From positions 1 to 64,000 of the forward strand of contig CAMVDB010000003.1 in NCBI GenBank assembly GCA_947166135.1: DNA of 64,000 bases. Direction: 5' to 3'. The stretch's first letter is position 1. The number at the start of each line of letters is the position of its first letter. Below are positions 1,101-23,411 of this stretch, piece by piece. The stretch is from an uncultured Clostridia bacterium (GTDB lineage: Bacteria > Bacillota > Clostridia > Oscillospirales > Acutalibacteraceae). The position numbers and the translations under genes are program-made. The notes under the pieces were generated by a model, which had not been told where the DNA came from, did no database searches, and saw only the letters and a list, made by a program, of their open reading frames with translations.

Positions 1101-1999
1101 TTTATACCGTGACCCTCAGTCCTTCGATCGACTACATCGTCCGCATGTCGAGCATGCGTACCAACGTGACCAACCGTACCGACAGCGAGGAATTCTACTA
1201 CGGCGGTAAGGGTATCAACGTCTCTCAGGTGCTCGCTGAGCTTGACCTCAACAGCACCGCCCTCGGCTTTGTCGCAGGCTTTACCGGCGACGCGATCGAG
1301 AAGGGTATCCGGAACAGCCGTATCCGCACGGAGTTCATCCGCCTGAAGGAAGGCTTCACCCGCATCAACATCAAGATCAAGTCCGGCGGCGAGACCGAGA
1401 TCAACGGACAGGGCCCCGATATCCCCGCTGAGGCGCTCGAAGAGCTGATGCAGAAGCTCGACCGTATCGTAGACGGCGATACGCTGGTGCTGGCGGGCAG
1501 CATCCCCAAGACCTGTCCCGACGATATCTATGAGCGTATGCTCGAGCGCGTCAAGGACAAGAAGATCATGATCGTGGTCGACGCGACCAAGCAGCTGCTG
1601 GTCAATTCGCTCTCCGCGCATCCCTTCCTCATCAAGCCCAACCGTCAGGAGCTCTCCGAGATCTTCCATGCGGAGGTTGAGAACGCTCAGGACGTTGAGA
1701 AATATGCCAGAAAGCTCCAGGAGATGGGCGCGAGAAACGTTATCGTCTCCCTCGGACGTCAGGGAGCCTTCCTCGTTGACGAGAACGGCGAGAGCCATAC
1801 CTGCGGTACGCTGAAGCAGCCGGTCATCAACACCGTCGGCGCGGGCGACAGCATGGTAGCGGGCTTCGTAGCAGGCTATCAGAAGACCGGCGACTACGGC
1901 TATGCCTTGAAGCTCGGTTCCGCCTGCGGCAACGCGACCTCCTTCCTCCCGGGCCTTGCGACAAGAGAGAAGATCGACGAGGTATTCGCTCAGCTGTAA
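1097..1999 (+). CDS. fruK: 1-phosphofructokinase (PfkB family)
   Basis: MIYTVTLSPSIDYIV, GGKGINVS, NTVGAGDSMVAGF signatures. Confidence 0.93.
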   Translation: MIYTVTLSPSIDYIVRMSSMRTNVTNRTDSEEFYYGGKGINVSQVLAELDLNSTALGFVAGFTGDAIEKGIRNSRIRTEFIRLKEGFTRINIKIKSGGETEINGQGPDIPAEALEELMQKLDRIVDGDTLVLAGSIPKTCPDDIYERMLERVKDKKIMIVVDATKQLLVNSLSAHPFLIKPNRQELSEIFHAEVENAQDVEKYARKLQEMGARNVIVSLGRQGAFLVDENGESHTCGTLKQPVINTVGAGDSMVAGFVAGYQKTGDYGYALKLGSACGNATSFLPGLATREKIDEVFAQL

Positions 2000-2002
2000 C
2001 CC

Positions 2003-2032
2003 GTGAACGGAGAACGGTGAATGGAGAATGGC
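2003..2032. repeat. Dispersed copies of the heptamer family (AACGGAG/AACGGTG/AATGGAG)
   Basis: gtgaacggagaacggtgaatggagaatggc directly after the fruK stop. Confidence 0.8.
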
Positions 2033-2221
2033 GGGCGTTTCCTCGCCGGAGACGGCTCCCCTCTGTCGCTTCGCGACACCTCCCCTTAGGGGAGATCCCC
2101 CGCACCCGAATTCCTGACTCCTCATTCCTAACTATTTTACTTTGGTCATAATTGTTATCGTGAGATAACGCTTTTGATATTGAAACGTAAATACTGAAAT
2201 CAAAATGAAAGGAGAGTATTT

Positions 2222-4171
2222 ATGCGTATTACTGATTTGTTGAAAGCGAACGCGATCAAGCTGAACGCGGCGCCTTCATCAAAGCAAGCGGCGATCGACC
2301 TGCTGGTTTCTCTGCACGATAAGGCGGGCAACCTCAAGGACGTTGCTGCTTACAAGGAGGGTATCCTCAAGCGCGAAGAGATGGGTACGACCGCGATCGG
2401 AATGGAGGTCGCTATCCCTCATGCGAAGAGCGAGGCCGTCAAGGCTCCGGCTCTCGCCGCTATCACCGTGCCGGACGGCGTTGACTATGAGTCTCCCGAC
2501 GGCGCACCCTGCAAGCTGATCTTCATGATCGCTGCTACTATGGACGGCGACGTCCATCTGGAGGTTCTCGCTCGCCTGATGCAGATGCTCATGCACGAGG
2601 ACTTCACCGCAAAGCTCAAGGCTGCAAAGACTCCTCAGGAGTTCCTTGCCATCATCGACAAGCAGGAGGCTGCGCAGTTCCCCGAGGAAGCTGCTGCTCC
2701 CGCTCCCGCTCCCAAGAAGGACGGCTATCAGGTACTCGCCGTCACCGCTTGCCCCACCGGTATCGCTCATACCTACATGGCTGCTGAAGCGCTGCAGAAG
2801 GCAGGCGACGAGATGGGTATCTCCATCAAGGTCGAGACCAACGGCTCCGGCGGCGCGAAGAACGTGCTGACCGCTGCTGAGATCGCAGCCTGCGACGGTA
2901 TCATCATCGCGGCTGACAAGAGCGTTGAGACCGCTCGCTTCGACGGTAAGCCCGTCTACTCCACCAAGGTTGCCGACGGCATCCATAAGCCCAAGGAGCT
3001 CATCAACAAGATCGTCAACAAGGAAGTCCCCGTATTCCACAGCGACAAGAAGGTCGAGGGCGGCTCCGGCTCGGTCGGTAATGAAAGCTTCGGCAGAAAG
3101 CTTTATAAGCACCTGATGAACGGTGTTTCCCACATGCTCCCGTTCGTTGTCGCGGGCGGTATCTTCATCGCAATCGCGTTCCTGATCGACGCCCTTTCCG
3201 GCGCTCCCCAGGACGGCAACTTCGGTTCGGTCACTCCCGTAGCGGCTTGGTTCAAGACGATCGGCGGCGTGGCGTTCGGCTTCATGCTCCCGATCCTCGC
3301 CGGCTTCATCGGTCGGTCTATCGCTGACCGTCCCGGTCTGCTCGTCGGTTTCGTCGGCGGTTCGCTGGCGGCTACCGGCTCTACCTTCGCTGCTCCCGGC
3401 GGCGACGGCGCTGCCGTATCCGGCTTCTTAGGCGCTCTGCTCGCCGGCTTCCTCGCCGGTTGGCTGATGAAGATGGTCGAGAAGATCTGCGATCATCTGC
3501 CGCATGCGCTTGAAGGCATCAAGCCCGTTCTGATCTACCCGCTCGTGGGTCTGGGCATGGTTGCCGTTATGATGTGCGCTGTCAACCCGATCGTCGGCTG
3601 GCTCAACGGCAAGCTGACCGAGGGCGTATCCGCTATGGCTCAGAATCCTGCTCTGATCGTTCCCGCCTGCGCACTGCTCGCCGGCATGATGGCGATCGAT
3701 ATGGGCGGTCCCTTCAACAAGGCTGCTTACGTTACCGCTACCGGCCTGCTGGCGTCCGGCGTCATGGGCTCCAACGAAGGCCCCTTCATGATCATGGCTG
3801 CTGTTATGATCGGCGGTATGGTTCCTCCGCTCGCGATCGCTCTGTCTACCACTATCTTCCGCAAGAAGTGGACTGCTGAAGAGAGAAAGAACGGCCCCGT
3901 CAACTTCATCATGGGTCTGTCGTTCATCACTGAGGGCGCGATTCCTTACGCTGCGGGTCATCCGTGGCCGGTCATCCCCGCTTGTATCGTAGGCTCCGCT
4001 GTTGCGGGTGCTCTGTCCGCTCTGTTCGGCTGCACCCTGATGGCTCCTCACGGCGGTATCTTCGTACTGCCCACCATCGGCAAGCCCCTCATGTACTTCC
4101 TCGCACTGGTCATCGGCGCTGTTGTCGGTTGTCTGGTTCTCTCCGTATTCAAGAAGAAGGTTGAGGAATAA
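2222..4171 (+). CDS. fruA: PTS fructose transporter subunit IIABC
   Basis: EIIA (GMEVAIPHAKSEAV), EIIB (VTACPTGIAHTYMAAEAL), EIIC (GGPFNKAAY) in one chain. Confidence 0.95.
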   Translation: MRITDLLKANAIKLNAAPSSKQAAIDLLVSLHDKAGNLKDVAAYKEGILKREEMGTTAIGMEVAIPHAKSEAVKAPALAAITVPDGVDYESPDGAPCKLIFMIAATMDGDVHLEVLARLMQMLMHEDFTAKLKAAKTPQEFLAIIDKQEAAQFPEEAAAPAPAPKKDGYQVLAVTACPTGIAHTYMAAEALQKAGDEMGISIKVETNGSGGAKNVLTAAEIAACDGIIIAADKSVETARFDGKPVYSTKVADGIHKPKELINKIVNKEVPVFHSDKKVEGGSGSVGNESFGRKLYKHLMNGVSHMLPFVVAGGIFIAIAFLIDALSGAPQDGNFGSVTPVAAWFKTIGGVAFGFMLPILAGFIGRSIADRPGLLVGFVGGSLAATGSTFAAPGGDGAAVSGFLGALLAGFLAGWLMKMVEKICDHLPHALEGIKPVLIYPLVGLGMVAVMMCAVNPIVGWLNGKLTEGVSAMAQNPALIVPACALLAGMMAIDMGGPFNKAAYVTATGLLASGVMGSNEGPFMIMAAVMIGGMVPPLAIALSTTIFRKKWTAEERKNGPVNFIMGLSFITEGAIPYAAGHPWPVIPACIVGSAVAGALSALFGCTLMAPHGGIFVLPTIGKPLMYFLALVIGAVVGCLVLSVFKKKVEE

Positions 4172-4669: not shown

Positions 4670-6370
4670 ATGATGAAAGGATTAGGCGCTTCCGAAGGCT
4701 ACGGCATCGGCAGAGTGATGCTGATTGTCGACCGCGAGCTCACATATACCCCCCGTGAGGTCGCCGATATCGACGCGGAGCTCGAGCGTTTTCACGGCGC
4801 AGTCGAGACCTTTACCGCGAATACCTTTGAGCAGGCGGACGCGGTACGCAAGTCGACCGGCGATAAGGAAGCAGAGATTTTAGAGGGTCATATCGCGATC
4901 ATCAGCGACCCCTTCATGAAAGGCGAAATCGAGAATCTGATCAAGGCTCACCAGTGCGCCGAGGCGGCTGTGGAGCAGATCTGTCAGATGTTTATAGATA
5001 TGTTCACCGCGACCGGCGACGAGCTGACCATGCAGCGTGCCGCCGACGTCAAGGATATCCGCGACAGCCTGCTTGGTATTCTCTTAGGCGTACAGGAGGT
5101 CAAGATCAGCGACGCACCCGCCGGCACCGTTTTGGTCGTCCACGAGCTGACTCCCTCCATGACCGCGGGCATCAAGAAGGATAATATCGTCGGTATCATC
5201 ACCGAGACCGGCTCCCAGACCTCCCACTCCGCGATCTTAGCGCGCGCGATGGAGATCCCCGCGGTACTGAGCGTTCCGAACGCGCTGTCACAGCTGAGCT
5301 CCGGCGAACAGATCATCGTCGACGGCAACAACGGCGACGTCATCACCGCTCCGTCACAGGAGCAGGTCGACGAGTATACCGCGAAGCGCGACACCTACCT
5401 GCGTGAGAAGCGTGAGCTCGAGATGTTCAGAGGCAAGCCCACCGTCTCCGCCTCGGGCGAAGAGTATGAGCTGTGCTGCAATATCGGTACGCCTAAGGAC
5501 GCCGCGAAGGCGATGGAGAAGGACGGCGAGGGCGTAGGTCTCTTCCGTACCGAGTTCCTGTTCATGGATCGTACCTCCCTGCCCACCGAGGACGAGCAGT
5601 TCGAGGCGTACAAGACTGCCGCTGTCGTCTTAAAGGGCAAGCCCCTCATCATCCGTACGCTGGATATCGGCGGCGACAAGGAGATCCCGTATCTCGGCCT
5701 TGAGAAGGAGGAGAACCCCTTCATGGGCTTCCGCGCGATCCGCTACTGCCTGCAGAACCGCGATATGTTCAAGTCGCAGATCAAGGCGATCCTGCGCGCG
5801 TCCGCGTTTGGCGACGTTCGCATCATGTTCCCGCTGATCACCGCGGTCGAGGAGCTCCGCGCCGGTAAAGCGCTGGTAGAGGAAGCAAAGTCCGACCTGC
5901 GTGCTTCGGGTATCGCGTTCAATGAGAACATCCCCGTCGGCGTGATGACCGAGACCTCCGCCTCCGGCGTGATCGCCGACCTGCTGGCGAAGGAAGCGGA
6001 CTTCTTCTCGATCGGCACCAACGACTTGACCGGCTACACGATGGCTTGCGACCGCGGCAACTCCAACGTCGGCTATCTGTACTCTCCGTTCCAGCCGTCC
6101 GTCCTCAGACTGATCAAGAGCATCATCGAGAACGGCGTGCACGCCGGTATCCCCGTCGGTATGTGCGGCGAGGCTGCCGCCAACCCCATGATGATCCCGC
6201 TCCTGATGAGCTTCGGGCTGACCGAGTTCTCCGTCTCTGCGGTATCCGTCCTCAAGGTGCGTAAGAATATCGCCAAGTGGACGAAGGCTGAGGCTGATAA
6301 GGTCGCCGAAAAAGTCATGGCGATGACCACCGAGAAGGAGATCACCGACTATCTGAAATCCGTTATCTGA
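4670..6370 (+). CDS. ptsI: Phosphoenolpyruvate-protein phosphotransferase (enzyme I)
   Basis: TETGSQTSHSAILAR phospho-His motif, GVGLFRTEFLFMDR, FSIGTNDLTGY. Confidence 0.95.
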   Translation: MMKGLGASEGYGIGRVMLIVDRELTYTPREVADIDAELERFHGAVETFTANTFEQADAVRKSTGDKEAEILEGHIAIISDPFMKGEIENLIKAHQCAEAAVEQICQMFIDMFTATGDELTMQRAADVKDIRDSLLGILLGVQEVKISDAPAGTVLVVHELTPSMTAGIKKDNIVGIITETGSQTSHSAILARAMEIPAVLSVPNALSQLSSGEQIIVDGNNGDVITAPSQEQVDEYTAKRDTYLREKRELEMFRGKPTVSASGEEYELCCNIGTPKDAAKAMEKDGEGVGLFRTEFLFMDRTSLPTEDEQFEAYKTAAVVLKGKPLIIRTLDIGGDKEIPYLGLEKEENPFMGFRAIRYCLQNRDMFKSQIKAILRASAFGDVRIMFPLITAVEELRAGKALVEEAKSDLRASGIAFNENIPVGVMTETSASGVIADLLAKEADFFSIGTNDLTGYTMACDRGNSNVGYLYSPFQPSVLRLIKSIIENGVHAGIPVGMCGEAAANPMMIPLLMSFGLTEFSVSAVSVLKVRKNIAKWTKAEADKVAEKVMAMTTEKEITDYLKSVI

Positions 6371-15245: not shown

Positions 15246-15297
15246 CCATTCACCATTCGCCATTCACCATTCACCGTTCACCATTCTCCATTCACCT
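15246..15297. repeat. Heptamer repeat cluster in opposite orientation to 15068-15118
   Basis: cattcaccattcgccattcaccattcaccgttcaccattctccattcacc. Confidence 0.85.
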
Positions 15298-17868
15298 TTT
15301 ATCTATGATCTCCCTGATCTCTGATTCGGCTTTTTGGATCTCTTCGAAGAATTCGCGGCAGCTTACGCGGATGGCGCCGTTGCCGAGGATGATCAGCTGT
15401 TCCATCCCGTCGGAGGTCACGACGCGCACGCGGTTGTTCTTCGCGAGCTCATACGACGCGCGCTCGATGTACATATCGGCGGTCTCCGCCTCCTTGGTAT
15501 AGACGACGGTGATGTTGTTGATTTTCTCGACCTCACGGTCATGCCCCTTGATCTTGTAGGCGTCATACACGAGGATCAGCTCGCACTTCCTGTAGCCCTG
15601 ATAGTTGCAGAGTGTGTTTTCGAGCAGGGTGCGGGCGGTGTCCATATGCTCGCCGACAAGCTCTCTGAGGTTGTCCCACGAGTGGATGACGTTGTAGCCG
15701 TCTACTAAGACATACTCGACGCCGTTGTAGTCGGATGGGAGGTTCTTCTTCTTCTGCTTCTGATAATCGGGCGTTTTGTAGCGCTTCGGCTCGCTGTAGA
15801 CCTTGCGCCGTACCGGCCCGTAGGTCTGCTCGAAGATCTGCATCAGCTCCTTATCGAGCGCGAAGATGTCCTTCTGACTTTTGTAGCGGGAGAGATCGCG
15901 GGTGTTGAATGAAGATTCGGATGATTCTTTTTTAGAATTATCAAGAATACTCGGAAGGTGCATGTATCGCGGCACTTCATCCCACTTGACGGTATGACCC
16001 GCGCCGTGAGAGCAGAATACCGAGTCGGCGGTATTCTCGATGTCGCTGTCGGCGTCGTAGGCGAGCTGCGCGATCACCTCGTCGGCGTTGTGACAGGGCT
16101 CATAGCCCTTGAGCGTATAGCTCAGTCTGCCGTTGCCGCGGGTATACTGCACGACCTCCTTCGAGTACCCGCGCATCGCGGATACGGGAGCGGTGCCGAT
16201 CAGCAGGGCGTTCTCGCCGTCGGTCTCGGGCGGGGAGAAATCGCCGCCCATGCGGGTGATATCGGTCATCGCTCTGCCGATATTATCGGCGGGGACAGAG
16301 AGGACGAAGTCGTAGACCGGCTCTAACAGCACGCTTTCGGCTGAGCGGAGACCCTGACGTACGGCGCGGTAGGTCGCCTGGCGGAAGTCGCCGCCCTCGG
16401 TGTGCTTTGCGTGGGCTCTGCCCGCCTTGAGGATGATTTCCATATCGGTGATCGGCGATCCCGTCAGTACGCCGAGATGGGTCTTTTCATACAGATGCGT
16501 GAGGATCAGCCGCTGCCAGTTCTTGTCGAGCTCATCCTCCTTACATTCGCTTTTGAACAGCAGTCCGCTGTCGCGTTCGGCGGGCTTTAATAACAAATGT
16601 ACCTCGGCATAGTGCCTGAGCGGTTCGAAGTGCCCCACGCCCTCGACTGTGTCGCGGATGGTTTCTTTGTAGATGATGCTGCCCTGTCCGAAGCCGACCC
16701 GGAAGCCGAACCGCTCGGGGATCAGGCTCTGCAAAATCTCGAGCTGGATGTCACCCATCAGCTGCAGCTGGATGTCGCCGCTGCGTTCGTTGAGGCTGAC
16801 GTGCAGGGTCGGATCCTCCGCTTCGAGGATTCTCAGCTTCGCGAGCGCTGTATGTACGTCGATGGTATCGGGCAGGATCACCGAGTAGGTCAACACCGGC
16901 TCGAGCACCGGCAGCCCCGAGTCGCTCTCGGTACCTAAGCCGTCGCCGGGGCTCGTGAAGCTCAGTCCCGTGACCGCGCAGACCGTACCGCTTTCGGCGA
17001 TATCTGCGGCGGTGAATTTCTCACCCGAGTACAGGCGGATCTGGTTGACCTTCTCGCTGTCGGTGTTGTTGCGGGAGGCGGGGATATCCTTGACCCTGAG
17101 GCTGCCGCCGGTGATCTTCATGAAGGTCAGGCGGTTGCCGCGGTTATCCTCGCTGATCTTATAGACCTTCGCCGCGAAATCGTCGCCGTAGCGCGGCATC
17201 ACGGTATAGGCGTCGAGCGCTTGCAGGAGCTCTTCAACGCCACTGAGCCTGAGTGCGGAGCCGAACAGCACGGGGTAGAGCCTGCGCTCGCGAATCACGC
17301 GGACGATGTCTTCACGAGCGACCGTCTCGGTCTCGTAGTAGCTTTCGAGCAGCTTCTCATCGCATAAGGCGATATTCTCGTACAGCTCGTCCTTCTCGGC
17401 GGTGAAGTCGACGGCGCTGTCGCTGAGCTTCGACCTGATCTCGCTGAGCACGCGGTCTTTATCGGTGCCGTCCATATCCATTTTGTTGACAAAGAGGAAG
17501 CACGGCACGCGGTATTTTTTCAGGAGCTTCCAGAGGGTGACGGTGTGGCTCTGTACGCCGTCGGTGCCGCTGATGACGAGGATCGCGTAGTCAAGCACCT
17601 GAAGCGCGCGCTCCGTCTCGGCGGAAAAGTCCACATGTCCGGGGGTATCGAGGATGGTATAGCGGGCGCCGGGGGTGGTGAACACCGCCATCTTCGAGAA
17701 GATGGTGATGCCCCTGTCGCGCTCTAGCTGAAAGTTATCGAGAAAGGCGTTCTTGTGGTCGACGCGTCCGAGCTTGCTGAGCGCTCCCGAGAGGTACAGC
17801 ATCGCTTCGGTGAGGGTGGTTTTTCCCGAGTCAACATGCGCCAGCATCCCGACGGTGATCTGCTTCAT
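15292..17868 (-). CDS. TetM/EF-G-like ribosomal-protection-type GTPase fused to C-terminal YacP/NYN (Rae1-like) domain
   Basis: GMLAHVDSGKTTLTEAMLY, DTPGHVDF, NKMDMDGTD; C-terminus YVLVDGYNVIHSWDNLRELV...LILVYDAYKIKG...VVTSDGMEQLIILGNGAIRVS. Confidence 0.85.
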   Translation of the reverse strand: MKQITVGMLAHVDSGKTTLTEAMLYLSGALSKLGRVDHKNAFLDNFQLERDRGITIFSKMAVFTTPGARYTILDTPGHVDFSAETERALQVLDYAILVISGTDGVQSHTVTLWKLLKKYRVPCFLFVNKMDMDGTDKDRVLSEIRSKLSDSAVDFTAEKDELYENIALCDEKLLESYYETETVAREDIVRVIRERRLYPVLFGSALRLSGVEELLQALDAYTVMPRYGDDFAAKVYKISEDNRGNRLTFMKITGGSLRVKDIPASRNNTDSEKVNQIRLYSGEKFTAADIAESGTVCAVTGLSFTSPGDGLGTESDSGLPVLEPVLTYSVILPDTIDVHTALAKLRILEAEDPTLHVSLNERSGDIQLQLMGDIQLEILQSLIPERFGFRVGFGQGSIIYKETIRDTVEGVGHFEPLRHYAEVHLLLKPAERDSGLLFKSECKEDELDKNWQRLILTHLYEKTHLGVLTGSPITDMEIILKAGRAHAKHTEGGDFRQATYRAVRQGLRSAESVLLEPVYDFVLSVPADNIGRAMTDITRMGGDFSPPETDGENALLIGTAPVSAMRGYSKEVVQYTRGNGRLSYTLKGYEPCHNADEVIAQLAYDADSDIENTADSVFCSHGAGHTVKWDEVPRYMHLPSILDNSKKESSESSFNTRDLSRYKSQKDIFALDKELMQIFEQTYGPVRRKVYSEPKRYKTPDYQKQKKKNLPSDYNGVEYVLVDGYNVIHSWDNLRELVGEHMDTARTLLENTLCNYQGYRKCELILVYDAYKIKGHDREVEKINNITVVYTKEAETADMYIERASYELAKNNRVRVVTSDGMEQLIILGNGAIRVSCREFFEEIQKAESEIREIIDKR

Positions 17869-19782: not shown

Positions 19783-19814
19783 AAAGCTGCCGTATCGCTT
19801 TGCGGCAGCTTTTA
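19783..19814 (+). terminator. Rho-independent terminator
   Basis: aaagctgccgtatcgctttgcggcagctttta. Confidence 0.8.
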
Positions 19815-19852: not shown

Positions 19853-21481
19853 ATGGTACAATGTCCGTCCTGCGGCGGCGGGCTGCGATTCGATATCGCG
19901 ACCCAGCGCATGCAGTGTGATTACTGCGGCAGTCAGTATGACCCCGCGCAAATCGGCGACAGCGTCAGGGATGACGCGAAGTCGGCAAAGACCTACGAGG
20001 GCTATATCTATATATGCCCTTCCTGCGGCGGCGAGCTGATGACGACCGATAAGAACGACGCGGTGGGCTTCTGTCCCTACTGCGGCGGCGCTTCGATGAT
20101 CTTTGACAAGACGCATAAGGAGTGGATCCCCGAGAGTGTCATCCCCTTCAAGATCACGAAGGAGCAGTGTAAGGAAGCCTATGTCAAAGAGGTCAGAAAG
20201 CACATTTTCGTGTCGAAGAAATACCGCGACCCGCAGCTGATCGACAGCTTCCGCGGCATCTATATGCCGTACTGGACGTACGTTGCGGAGCAGAAGGGCG
20301 GCTACGTACTCGAGGCGAAATCGCATGAGAAGCGCGTCAGCTTCAACACCTACGAGACGGATATCTTCGAGGTCACGGGTCAGATGGATCTGACCGTCGA
20401 GGGCTATACCCACGACGCCTCCGCCGCCTTTGACGACAGCCTCAGCGAGAGCATCGCGCCCTTTGACGAGCAGGCGAGAACGCCCTTCGCGCCCGGGTAT
20501 CTGAGCGGCTTCTACGCCGAGATCGCGGATGTTAAGCAGAATGAGTTCCGTCACCTCGCGCGCGAGGAGCTCAAGCAGTACAGCATCAACGCGCTGAATA
20601 ACGACCCGAATATCACGCAGGAGCTCAGGCGCCGTAAGCTCAGGCTCGATCCCTCCGAGACGAACGTCCCGATCAATATCAAATCCCACAAGCGCGTTCT
20701 GCGCCCCGTGTGGTTCATGAGCTATCGAAATAATGACAAGATCACCTACGCCGTCGTCAACGGTCAGACGGGCAAGGTCAGCGCCGATCTGCCCCTGAGC
20801 CCCGCGCGTATCCTGATCGCGGCGCTTCTCTTCGCGGGTATCATCTTCGGTATCCTCATGGTGGGGATGAGCAATCTCCCGTCCATCAAAGGCGCTCCCA
20901 CCCTCGGTATCGGCATCGGTCTGATGCTGATGGGACTGTTCTATACCCGCAAGTCGCTGTGCTGTTCGATGGAGAGCTACCTGCTCTATCCCGATCTTAA
21001 GCCTGCCCGATTCCTCCAACCGTCCGAGATCATCCCCTTCCTCTGTATGGTGGCGGGTATGACGATGATCGCGATCGACGGCTCCTACAGCGGCGCCCAT
21101 CGTGCGTTCGGTATGATGCTCGCGCTGATCTCGTTCTTCATCCTGACGGTGAAATATATGAAACTGCATAATCTTTTCAAAAAGACGAAGGACAGGATCA
21201 AAAAATCGCCCGATATGTTCCGTATGGGGACGGCTGCCGAGGCGATGAAGCTGATCCATGACGAGCGCTGGCTGCGTATCGTCTGCTATGTATCGGTTTT
21301 GATCGCCGTTATGCTGGCGGTCTCCGACCGTGCGCCGAACTGGGCGATGTACGCGTTCGGCTTTGTTTTGATGTTCGAGCTCTTCGGCATCGTGCTGTAT
21401 ACCATCCGCTTCCAGCGCGACGTCGCAAAGCGCATGCCGCCTCAGTTCAATAAGAAGGGAGCGCTGTATGATGAACAATAA
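19853..21481 (+). CDS. Zinc-ribbon multi-pass membrane protein
   Basis: CPSCGG...CDYCGS, CPSCGG...CPYCGG pairs; several C-terminal TM segments. Confidence 0.75.
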   Translation: MVQCPSCGGGLRFDIATQRMQCDYCGSQYDPAQIGDSVRDDAKSAKTYEGYIYICPSCGGELMTTDKNDAVGFCPYCGGASMIFDKTHKEWIPESVIPFKITKEQCKEAYVKEVRKHIFVSKKYRDPQLIDSFRGIYMPYWTYVAEQKGGYVLEAKSHEKRVSFNTYETDIFEVTGQMDLTVEGYTHDASAAFDDSLSESIAPFDEQARTPFAPGYLSGFYAEIADVKQNEFRHLAREELKQYSINALNNDPNITQELRRRKLRLDPSETNVPINIKSHKRVLRPVWFMSYRNNDKITYAVVNGQTGKVSADLPLSPARILIAALLFAGIIFGILMVGMSNLPSIKGAPTLGIGIGLMLMGLFYTRKSLCCSMESYLLYPDLKPARFLQPSEIIPFLCMVAGMTMIAIDGSYSGAHRAFGMMLALISFFILTVKYMKLHNLFKKTKDRIKKSPDMFRMGTAAEAMKLIHDERWLRIVCYVSVLIAVMLAVSDRAPNWAMYAFGFVLMFELFGIVLYTIRFQRDVAKRMPPQFNKKGALYDEQ

Positions 21482-22292
21482 AGTCAGACGAATCCTCGCG
21501 CTCCTGACGGCTGCGGTGCTGATTGCGGCGATCTCCGCCGTTTCCGCATCCGCCGCCGATAATACCCCTTATACTGACCCCGAGACCGATTTCCGCGTCG
21601 TTATCATCGACGAGCTCGATCTGCTGACCGACGAGGAGGAGACCAAGCTCGTACAGGATATGCGCCCGATCACGCGTTTCGGCAACGTCGCCTTCTGGAC
21701 GACCGAGGAAACGACCTATAACGAGATCGACCAGGCGCGCTTGAAGCGCAAAGAGCTCTTTGAGTATGAGAGCGCGACGATCTTCGCGATCAATATGGAT
21801 ATCCGCAAGCTGACCGTTCAGTCCTACGGTACGATCTACGATTCCGTCAGCGATTCTCTGGCACGTTCCATCACCTCGAATGCCAGCAGTCATGCTTCCA
21901 AGGGCGATTATTACGCCTGTGCGTCCGAGATCTACAGTCAGATCAACCGTGTGCTGGAGGGCGATCATATCCCCGAGCCGATGAAGATCAGCAGCTACGT
22001 CATCATCTCCGTGATGGCGGGTCTGGTGTTCGCAATCCTTATTGCACTCGGTACACGCAGTCAGGGCAGCAAAAAGCAGGGCGTTCCTTCGATTGCGCCG
22101 ATGGGCGTCGGTACGCTGACGGGCAATCAGCTGAATATCACCTTCGTGCGTAAGAAGACCCGCGTCGTTCAGCACTCCTCGTGCAGCAGCGGCGGCTGCA
22201 GCTCGGGCAGCTCCTGCGGTGGCGGCGGCTGCAGCTCAGGCAGCTCCTGCGGAGGCGGCGGCTGCGGCGGTGGCGGCAGCTCGTCGTTCTGA
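21468..22292 (+). CDS. TPM-domain (YgcG-like) membrane protein with six-Cys Gly/Ser-rich C-terminal tail
   Basis: Signal peptide, TPM-like VVIIDELDLLTDEEETKL, TM YVIISVMAGLVFAILIAL; tail HSSCSSGGCSSGSSCGGGGCSSGSSCGGGGCGGGGSSSF. Confidence 0.8.
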   Translation: MMNNKVRRILALLTAAVLIAAISAVSASAADNTPYTDPETDFRVVIIDELDLLTDEEETKLVQDMRPITRFGNVAFWTTEETTYNEIDQARLKRKELFEYESATIFAINMDIRKLTVQSYGTIYDSVSDSLARSITSNASSHASKGDYYACASEIYSQINRVLEGDHIPEPMKISSYVIISVMAGLVFAILIALGTRSQGSKKQGVPSIAPMGVGTLTGNQLNITFVRKKTRVVQHSSCSSGGCSSGSSCGGGGCSSGSSCGGGGCGGGGSSSF

Positions 22293-23278
22293 TGGCTGAT
22301 ACATCATACGAGGGCTTCTTCACCCTCCAGTGGCATATCACGCATCGCTGTAACCTGCGGTGTACCCACTGTTATCAGGACGATTATTCCGCTTTTGAGA
22401 ATCGTACTTCACTCGTCAAGATCCTCGATCAGTATGAGAAGCTGTTGAAGGCGTATCGTTTCAAGGGTCATATCAATATCACCGGCGGCGAGCCGTTTCT
22501 CCATCCCGATCTGTTTTGGCTGCTCGAAGAAGCGGGAAAGCGCGGGATCACTACCGCGGTACTTACGAACGGCACCGTGATCGGCTTGCGTGAGGCGAAG
22601 CGCCTGCGCGCCTGCGGGGTCGACTATGTTCAGGTCAGTCTCGACGGTACCGAGCAGGTGCATGACGCGATCCGAGGGAGAGGGAGCTTTCAGCGGGCAG
22701 TCAAGGGTATCTTTGCCCTTCGCTCTCAGGGTATCTTCACCAGTGTTTCCTTTACCGCTCAGCGGGAGAATCTGAAGGAACTGCCGAAGCTTGCCCGCTA
22801 CTGCGACGAGATCGGCGCGAACAAGCTCTGGTATGACAGGGTGATCATACCCGCCGACGAGGATGTACGTCACCTGTCCCTGACGACGGATGATTTCATC
22901 AAGCTCAGCCGAAAGGCGGCGCGGCTTAACCGCCGCTACCGCGTAACGTGTCAGCGTGCTTTACAGTTCATTCCGTGTAAGAATAAGCAGATCTACCGCT
23001 GCACGGCGGGAGAGAGCCTTTTGACGATTCTCGCCGACGGTTCCGTGATGGCGTGTCGCCGACTGCCGATCACCGTCGGCAGCGTGCATGACTCCGATCT
23101 GTTGACGATCTACAACACGAGTCCCGAACTGATCGCGATCCGAAGCGCGGGACTCCCGGAGGGCTGTAAGGGCTGTGATTACGCCGAGTTGTGCGGCGGC
23201 GGCGCCCGCTGTGTGACGTATGCCCGTACGGGGCGCTATGATCTGCCCGATCCCGATTGTATACTTGCACAAAAATAA
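22292..23278 (+). CDS. Radical SAM/SPASM domain protein
   Basis: THRCNLRCTHCYQ (CxxxCxxC), NITGGEPFLHPDLF; SPASM-type Cys set CTAGES...CRRLPITVG...CKGCDYAELCGGGARC...DC; TGATG overlap with upstream stop. Confidence 0.88.
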   Translation: MADTSYEGFFTLQWHITHRCNLRCTHCYQDDYSAFENRTSLVKILDQYEKLLKAYRFKGHINITGGEPFLHPDLFWLLEEAGKRGITTAVLTNGTVIGLREAKRLRACGVDYVQVSLDGTEQVHDAIRGRGSFQRAVKGIFALRSQGIFTSVSFTAQRENLKELPKLARYCDEIGANKLWYDRVIIPADEDVRHLSLTTDDFIKLSRKAARLNRRYRVTCQRALQFIPCKNKQIYRCTAGESLLTILADGSVMACRRLPITVGSVHDSDLLTIYNTSPELIAIRSAGLPEGCKGCDYAELCGGGARCVTYARTGRYDLPDPDCILAQK

Positions 23279-23411
23279 GTCTTTGATGCGTGGATATTCT
23301 TTTATAGAATTATCTTTTGAAGTTATTGACAAAGTCGCTTTTTGTCATATAATTGTATTTGATGACAAATCAGAATAAATACGGATTGATTCGGTAAAGG
23401 TGGTTCATGGG

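Follow-up and report, generated by a model that had tools for sequence, protein, structure and literature searches.

The window, the whole 64,000-nucleotide stretch of DNA analysed here, contains a three-gene operon that probably encodes both a dedicated radical SAM/SPASM enzyme and its substrate, a membrane protein with a TPM domain. On comparison with related genomes, the enzyme would oxidatively modify Cys in the C-terminal tail of the TPM protein, and its minimal target would be the Cys that is ninth from the C-terminus. The original prediction had proposed the tail as a substrate for the enzyme encoded next to it, and this is the most likely reading of the comparisons, because tail Cys and enzyme co-occur at genome level even where their genes are unlinked, because at least four changes in one are matched by changes in the other, and because distant relatives of the enzyme lie beside other membrane proteins with Cys/Gly tails.

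The three genes are located on the forward strand, as are all features given below, and overlap at their starts as had been described. The first (19853..21481) is an ORF of 542 aa encoding a zinc-ribbon membrane protein, the second (21468..22292, 274 aa) encodes a YdjH-like protein with a TPM domain (PF04536) and the third (22292..23278, 328 aa) encodes the radical SAM/SPASM enzyme (PF04055 and PF13186). The ATG of the TPM gene at 21468 lies within the zinc-ribbon gene and a TGATG at 22290–22294 joins the TPM and enzyme genes; the three genes form a translationally coupled operon. A hairpin followed by T was seen by eye at about 19786–19814, between the polysaccharide deacetylase gene upstream and the operon. 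It was not listed by the hairpin scan, its loop probably being longer than the scan allows.

Only one other genome, from another genus (G024), had a close homologue of the TPM protein (1/200 in the family of the host). Its operon matches that of the window in gene content and gene order, with identities of 46, 47 and 57% for the first, second and third genes respectively, and encodes a tail with four Cys. The final 17 tail residues are identical between the two proteins, while the linker before the tail has diverged. Synonymous codon differences were found in the identical stretch, indicating that the tail is conserved at the protein level rather than as a DNA repeat. A pattern search found the CGGGGC DNA pattern nowhere else in the host genome, and this, together with the homologous operon of G024, indicates that the tail and the operon are not chance occurrences.

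The TPM protein is a member of the TPM family by its match to PF04536 (E 1.3e-7, 32.1 bits against a cut-off of 22.1), and a Foldseek search with its AlphaFold model returned the TPM structures 7tbr, 2kw7, 3pvh and 8c7i. Its architecture is a signal peptide, a TPM domain, one transmembrane segment and a Gly/Ser/Cys tail. The N-terminal signal peptide MMNNKVRRILALLTAAVLIAAISAVSASA (residues 1–29, 21468..21554) was assigned from the sequence and from a hydropathy peak at residues 9–27 in the 95% identical L034 copy. The single transmembrane segment (about residues 174–194, 21987..22049), with R/K after it, was placed from hydropathy and positive-inside counts in 28 homologues. The proposed substrate region is the C-terminal tail HSSCSSGGCSSGSSCGGGGCSSGSSCGGGGCGGGGSSSF (22173..22289), identified from the translation and from co-occurrence with the enzyme, in which the translation confirmed six Cys with the reported spacing of X4, X5, X4, X5 and X4.

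This regular period is not conserved in the relatives, which carry 1–6 tail Cys at varied spacing, and strict six-Cys periodicity was therefore discarded as a conserved trait. The conserved element is instead the C-terminal signature C-G-[GS]-G-G-[GS]-[SA]-S-F, found in 18/18 enzyme-bearing homologues. Its Cys, Cys266 in the window (codon 22263..22265), is ninth from the C-terminus and was kept in every one of the 18 homologues with the enzyme and a readable tail, with none to five Cys in addition to it. All 58 tail Cys counted have Gly or Ser on both sides. The Cys at −9 is the sole tail Cys in L037/L161, L041 and L042, the last with the tail GGGGCGGGGSSSF, and the enzyme is kept in each, which indicates that neither a Cys period nor multiple Cys, and hence no multi-Cys metal site, is required.

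Membership of the enzyme in the radical SAM/SPASM class is supported by matches over the cut-off to both PF04055 (3e-26) and PF13186 (7e-8). The CxxxCxxC motif of the SAM-binding 4Fe-4S cluster (C20, C24 and C27; 22349..22372) and the SPASM Cys set assigned to auxiliary clusters (C237, C255, C292, C295, C301, C307 and C323; 23000..23260) were invariant in 18 relatives. The closest structures to its AlphaFold model (pLDDT 80) were SkfB, PqqE, anSME and CteB, matches that point to the SPASM class in general. Among NCBIfam models, the best was SbtM (TIGR04082) with 161 bits, which is below the curated cut-off of 350 and indicates that the enzyme is not SbtM, followed by ACGX (TIGR04340) with 149 bits against 400. 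One or other of these models likewise ranked first or second among the relatives that were scored, with TIGR04053 leading in three. The enzyme carries no fused RiPP recognition domain, and no RRE or PqqD partner was found in the operon. A PqqD-like gene adjoins the enzyme only in L162, and two PqqD matches are located elsewhere in the host genome.

The dependence of tail Cys on the enzyme was assessed by comparison among genomes. A scan of the genome collection with the zinc-ribbon protein found 466 relatives, from which 80 loci were obtained, and the Gly-rich tails of the neighbouring TPM genes were scored as Cys-containing or Cys-less. The enzyme was sought by profile across whole genomes, a test of adjacency being insufficient since seven genomes carry it unlinked to the TPM gene. 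For the 76 genomes with a readable TPM tail, 18 had both tail Cys and enzyme, 57 had neither, one (L064) had Cys without the enzyme and none had the enzyme without Cys (INDEPENDENCE: Fisher p 1.5e-16, an overstated value as related genomes are treated as independent). The contrast between Cys-tailed and tailless homologues that had been put forward as a test thus came out as expected, with the enzyme in 18/19 Cys-tailed and 0/57 Cys-less cases. Enzyme family scores were 336–615 bits, well clear of the background, which did not exceed 103 bits in five genomes counted as enzyme-negative. Many of the genomes are draft metagenome bins, in which enzyme absence may reflect incomplete assembly. L072 has the enzyme and is outside the table, its TPM gene being cut off by the end of a contig.

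Adjacency of the TPM and enzyme genes, as originally described, is also seen in G024 and is absent from the seven genomes with an unlinked enzyme (L036, L038, L040, L041, L042, L043 and L044), where its neighbours are unrelated. Linkage alone therefore cannot account for the pairing of tail and enzyme. Another local substrate for these unlinked enzymes was considered and rejected, as no other Cys-tailed protein and no other local substrate or partner was seen beside them. The enzyme of L037 also seemed unlinked, but there the contig ends, and on another contig (L161) it adjoins a TPM gene.

In a quick tree of the zinc-ribbon partner, the well-supported branches require four or more switches between presence and absence of the enzyme, and tail Cys changed at each. 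These concern L039 inside the main clade, L057/L061 versus L059, L058 versus L052, and the six-member L050–L056 clade; neither the enzyme nor a tail Cys is present in L039, L057/L061, L058 or the L050–L056 clade. The one exception, L064, lies on a long branch of the tree, and its tail has six Cys arranged in another pattern, with no enzyme found. An internal control is provided by the second SPFH/zinc-ribbon/TPM locus of the host genome, which has the Cys-less tail SSSSHTSSGGGSYSGGGSNF and no enzyme alongside.

Two explanations that dispense with modification of the tail were weighed against these data. Neutral drift of Cys within a Gly/Ser repeat, with the enzyme acting on something else and the lineage common by descent, would agree with the clustering of the enzyme on the tree and with the Cys codons of the window tail, which are all TGC and one base from their GGC and AGC neighbours. 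It is very hard to reconcile with the absence of tail Cys from all 57 enzyme-free genomes with Gly-rich tails (L064 apart), the four or more independent matched changes, the invariant Cys at −9 and the recurrence of the pairing in membrane proteins of unrelated families, and we regard it as highly improbable. An unmodified tail that binds metal or Fe-S, or is redox-active, and cooperates with or supplies the enzyme is somewhat less improbable, though still unlikely. Gly-rich multi-Cys tails could bind metals and a zinc-ribbon protein is also present in the operon, but the three genomes with the enzyme and one tail Cys offer too few ligands for a multi-Cys site in one chain, and no other partner was seen for the unlinked enzyme copies. 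For the preferred reading, a dedicated enzyme modifying the tail, the points that may count against it are the L064 exception, the distant relative in L229 described below, the draft state of the bins, the lack of a fused RiPP recognition domain and a strand predicted at TPM residues 268–273.

To place the enzyme in a wider family, more distant relatives were considered. Among 394 genomes of the order, a close enzyme was present only in the window genome and G024, and two others had a relative of about 280 bits. A class-wide sample gave seven further relatives at 340–420 bits and a phylum-wide sample gave two at 250–272 bits. It was found that 9/11 relatives in the 250–420 bit range lie directly downstream of, and often overlap, the gene of a membrane protein with a Cys/Gly/Ser C-terminal tail, for example SGCSGCSSCSSCSSCSSCGGCGGCGD, CSSCGGGCSSCGGGCSSCGGGGSW and GGGCGGGGCGGGCGG. 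In L208 a small Cys-tailed protein is two genes from the enzyme relative, and in L229 (250 bits) no Cys-tailed neighbour was present at the enzyme locus. The Cys-tailed partners of the distant relatives are not TPM proteins: those of L209, L210 and L228 pass the TIGR04222 cut-off, that of L211 is a DUF2207 protein and the others are unnamed. Gly/Ser/Cys tails containing Cys were found in 28/1315 ORFs in 118 loci, all of them in TPM proteins or in these enzyme loci. A Cys-tailed membrane partner was not seen for enzyme relatives below 225 bits, some of which are part of the ACGX peptide system.

Among published systems, the nearest is the modification by MNIO enzymes that has been proposed for TIGR04222 tails. 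A 2025 survey proposes the Cys/Ser/Gly tails of TIGR04222 proteins as MNIO substrates, and some members of that family lack both Cys and enzyme, with the Cys number not fixed (PMC12452194). Like the window operon, the TIGR04222/MNIO (DUF692) pair combines an integral membrane protein, a Ser/Gly-rich C-terminal tail with Cys and an adjacent oxidative RiPP-type enzyme. It differs in that the window enzyme is a radical SAM/SPASM protein rather than an MNIO and the membrane protein is TPM rather than TIGR04222, and in that the tail is predicted to be cytoplasmic in the window protein and periplasmic in the TIGR04222/MNIO pair. No protein of the operon matched TIGR04222, which places the operon outside this pair.

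SbtM, the best NCBIfam match, is likewise a SPASM enzyme and acts on Cys. About 195 positions at the N-terminal end of its model form an additional region that is absent from the window enzyme, and its substrate is a Cys/selenocysteine peptide whereas the candidate substrate here is a membrane protein tail. In the ACGX system, the second-best match, the partner adjoining the enzyme is a Cys-repeat peptide (SACGAADP...), a short peptide rather than a membrane protein, and the gene set includes a nitroreductase; the score of the window enzyme and the lack of ACGX repeats in the tail of its TPM protein place it outside that system. SkfB, AlbA, CteB and PapB share the radical SAM/SPASM fold and have Cys-containing peptide substrates, but are about 20% identical to the window enzyme, which is without their fused N-terminal recognition domain. 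In contrast to sactipeptide and ranthipeptide systems, no short precursor peptide gene was found in the window operon; the partner is a 274-aa membrane protein rather than the short precursor with a cleavable leader of a RiPP. In the literature, no paper was found that pairs TPM or DUF2207 with radical SAM/SPASM, or ACGX with radical SAM.

Within the modification reading, the chemistry may be thiooxazole formation, with a loss of four hydrogens per Cys as for SbtM, which we consider somewhat more plausible than the other chemistries, though short of an even chance. In what a review relates of SbtM, Cys peptides lose four hydrogens and a thiooxazole is formed. No family with tested chemistry is nearer than SbtM, and by this analogy the −2 Da of a thioether is no more likely than a shift of −4 Da per Cys. 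MNIO enzymes make the same heterocycle, and a chemistry in common with them is plausible since distant relatives of the radical SAM enzyme pair with TIGR04222 proteins. Some chemistry other than thiooxazole or thioether is possible at a lower likelihood.

The original prediction had put forward a thioether of the sactipeptide or ranthipeptide kind. Such cross-links from Cys to Gly/Ser, of the sactionine or ranthionine type at −2 Da each, stay among the possible readings with a likelihood clearly under one half, and are no longer the favoured one given that SbtM is the best-scoring family with tested chemistry. Thioether-forming SkfB and CteB are among the closest solved structures and most relatives have multi-Cys tails. 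However, the structure matches cover the whole SPASM class, NCBIfam scores to StsB, AlbA and PapB were lower than to SbtM and ACGX, and Gly/Ser are the only acceptor residues available, with none singled out. An anSME-type conversion of tail Cys or Ser to formylglycine is scarcely credible: anSME is among the structural neighbours, but the tail is without C/S-x-P-x-R, the sulfatase motif for anSME, and the operon is without a sulfatase gene.

We tentatively suggest, as a possibility well short of even, that Clostridia and other Bacillota have an unnamed radical SAM/SPASM subfamily which, independently of oxygen, does the work of MNIO enzymes, making thiooxazoles or related Cys heterocycles in the C-terminal Cys/Gly/Ser tails of unrelated integral membrane protein families (TPM, TIGR04222, DUF2207 and unnamed ones), as a transferable module rather than for a released peptide. 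If this is true, radical SAM maturases would act on intact membrane proteins as well as on small secreted peptides. Enzymes of two unrelated classes would then have been recruited to one kind of substrate, the Cys/Gly/Ser tail of a membrane protein. Many low-complexity Cys tails that annotation passes over would also gain a function, and the TIGR04222, TPM and DUF2207 protein families would become open to a first functional interpretation.

The side of the membrane on which the tail lies was predicted from 28 homologues, which in general have a signal peptide, a TPM domain and one strong transmembrane segment followed by basic residues; in some, a further hydrophobic stretch is weakly indicated. 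The basic residues after the transmembrane segment suggest, by the positive-inside rule, a cytoplasmic tail, on the same side as the enzyme. The external membrane display first envisaged is not supported by this topology, and surface display of the tail was set aside. In the AlphaFold model, residues 268–273 of the TPM protein form a confident strand that may pack on the TPM domain, which would be at odds with a cytoplasmic tail.

In the proposed mechanism, the second gene would provide a TPM protein that is anchored in the membrane and bears Cys on a flexible C-terminal tail of Gly/Ser, and the third gene the enzyme for oxidative modification of these Cys in the cytoplasm, with the Cys at −9 sufficing as a target. 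The modified tail might then serve as a ligand, possibly metal-binding, or as an interaction tag for a YdjG/YdjH-like membrane complex. By analogy, and as speculation, a modified cytoplasmic tail on such an anchor could bind metal or partners.

In Bacillus subtilis, YdjG and YdjH interact with each other and tether an SPFH protein as well as PspA to the membrane (PMC8581546). No PspA was found in the host genome, so a PspA-linked role as in B. subtilis was dropped and only the YdjG/YdjH analogy was kept. The pspA-ydjGHI operon of B. subtilis resembles the window operon in having a protein with a CPxC zinc-ribbon start followed by a second membrane protein; it contains no enzyme, and its YdjH ends in SRGSF, Cys-free there, according to a published primer (PMC8581546). 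Two CxxC pairs of the zinc-ribbon type are present in the first protein of the window operon, whose matches to Pfam zinc-ribbon models fall below the cut-off; it appears to be a long form of a YdjG-like family of zinc-ribbon membrane proteins. The likeness to YdjG/YdjH is based on architecture and neighbours, and the second zinc-ribbon/TPM pair of the host adjoins an SPFH gene.

The TPM protein encoded at 1476-3464 of locus L064 carries the tail SSCGSSCSSCGSSCSSCGSSCGGSSF, and the radical SAM/SPASM enzyme family of the operon was not found in the genome of this locus. Such a tail without the enzyme may reflect a different modifier, or the bin may be incomplete. In the AlphaFold model of the TPM protein of the window, residues 268-273 (within window 22263-22289) form a confident strand, though the tail is disordered. 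A similar GGxSSF/GGHSF ending is found in Cys-less TPM homologues too.

C-terminal tails like CGGCGGCGGCGD were also found on membrane or zinc-ribbon proteins adjoining radical SAM/SPASM genes at five loci, namely L179 (2223-6422), L180 (4809-6251), L206 (5639-6760), L207 (5464-7005) and L212 (5408-6358). None of these tailed proteins had a family match over the cut-off, and at L179 the tailed protein is present as three consecutive paralogues.

A PqqD-like recognition protein gene (5418-5714, minus strand) lies divergent from the unlinked enzyme copy of L162, and was seen next to none of the remaining enzyme copies. The ACGX system was observed at L181, L182, L183 and L217, with a conserved gene order of short peptide, radical SAM/SPASM gene, and nitroreductase-like and further genes; SACGAADP repeats were seen in the L181 peptide. 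The radical SAM/SPASM matches at L213 and L214 (genomes G937 and G713) scored about 220 bits, and the search reported an in-frame TAG for both.

Outside the operon, a perfect consensus promoter (TTGACA-16-TATAAT, window 23326-23353) separates it from the transglutaminase-like gene at 23400. An EF-G/TetM-like GTPase (window 15292-17868, minus strand) has a C-terminal fusion to a putative nuclease domain; by eye, this domain (VLVDGYNVIHSWD) reads like the NYN/YacP type.
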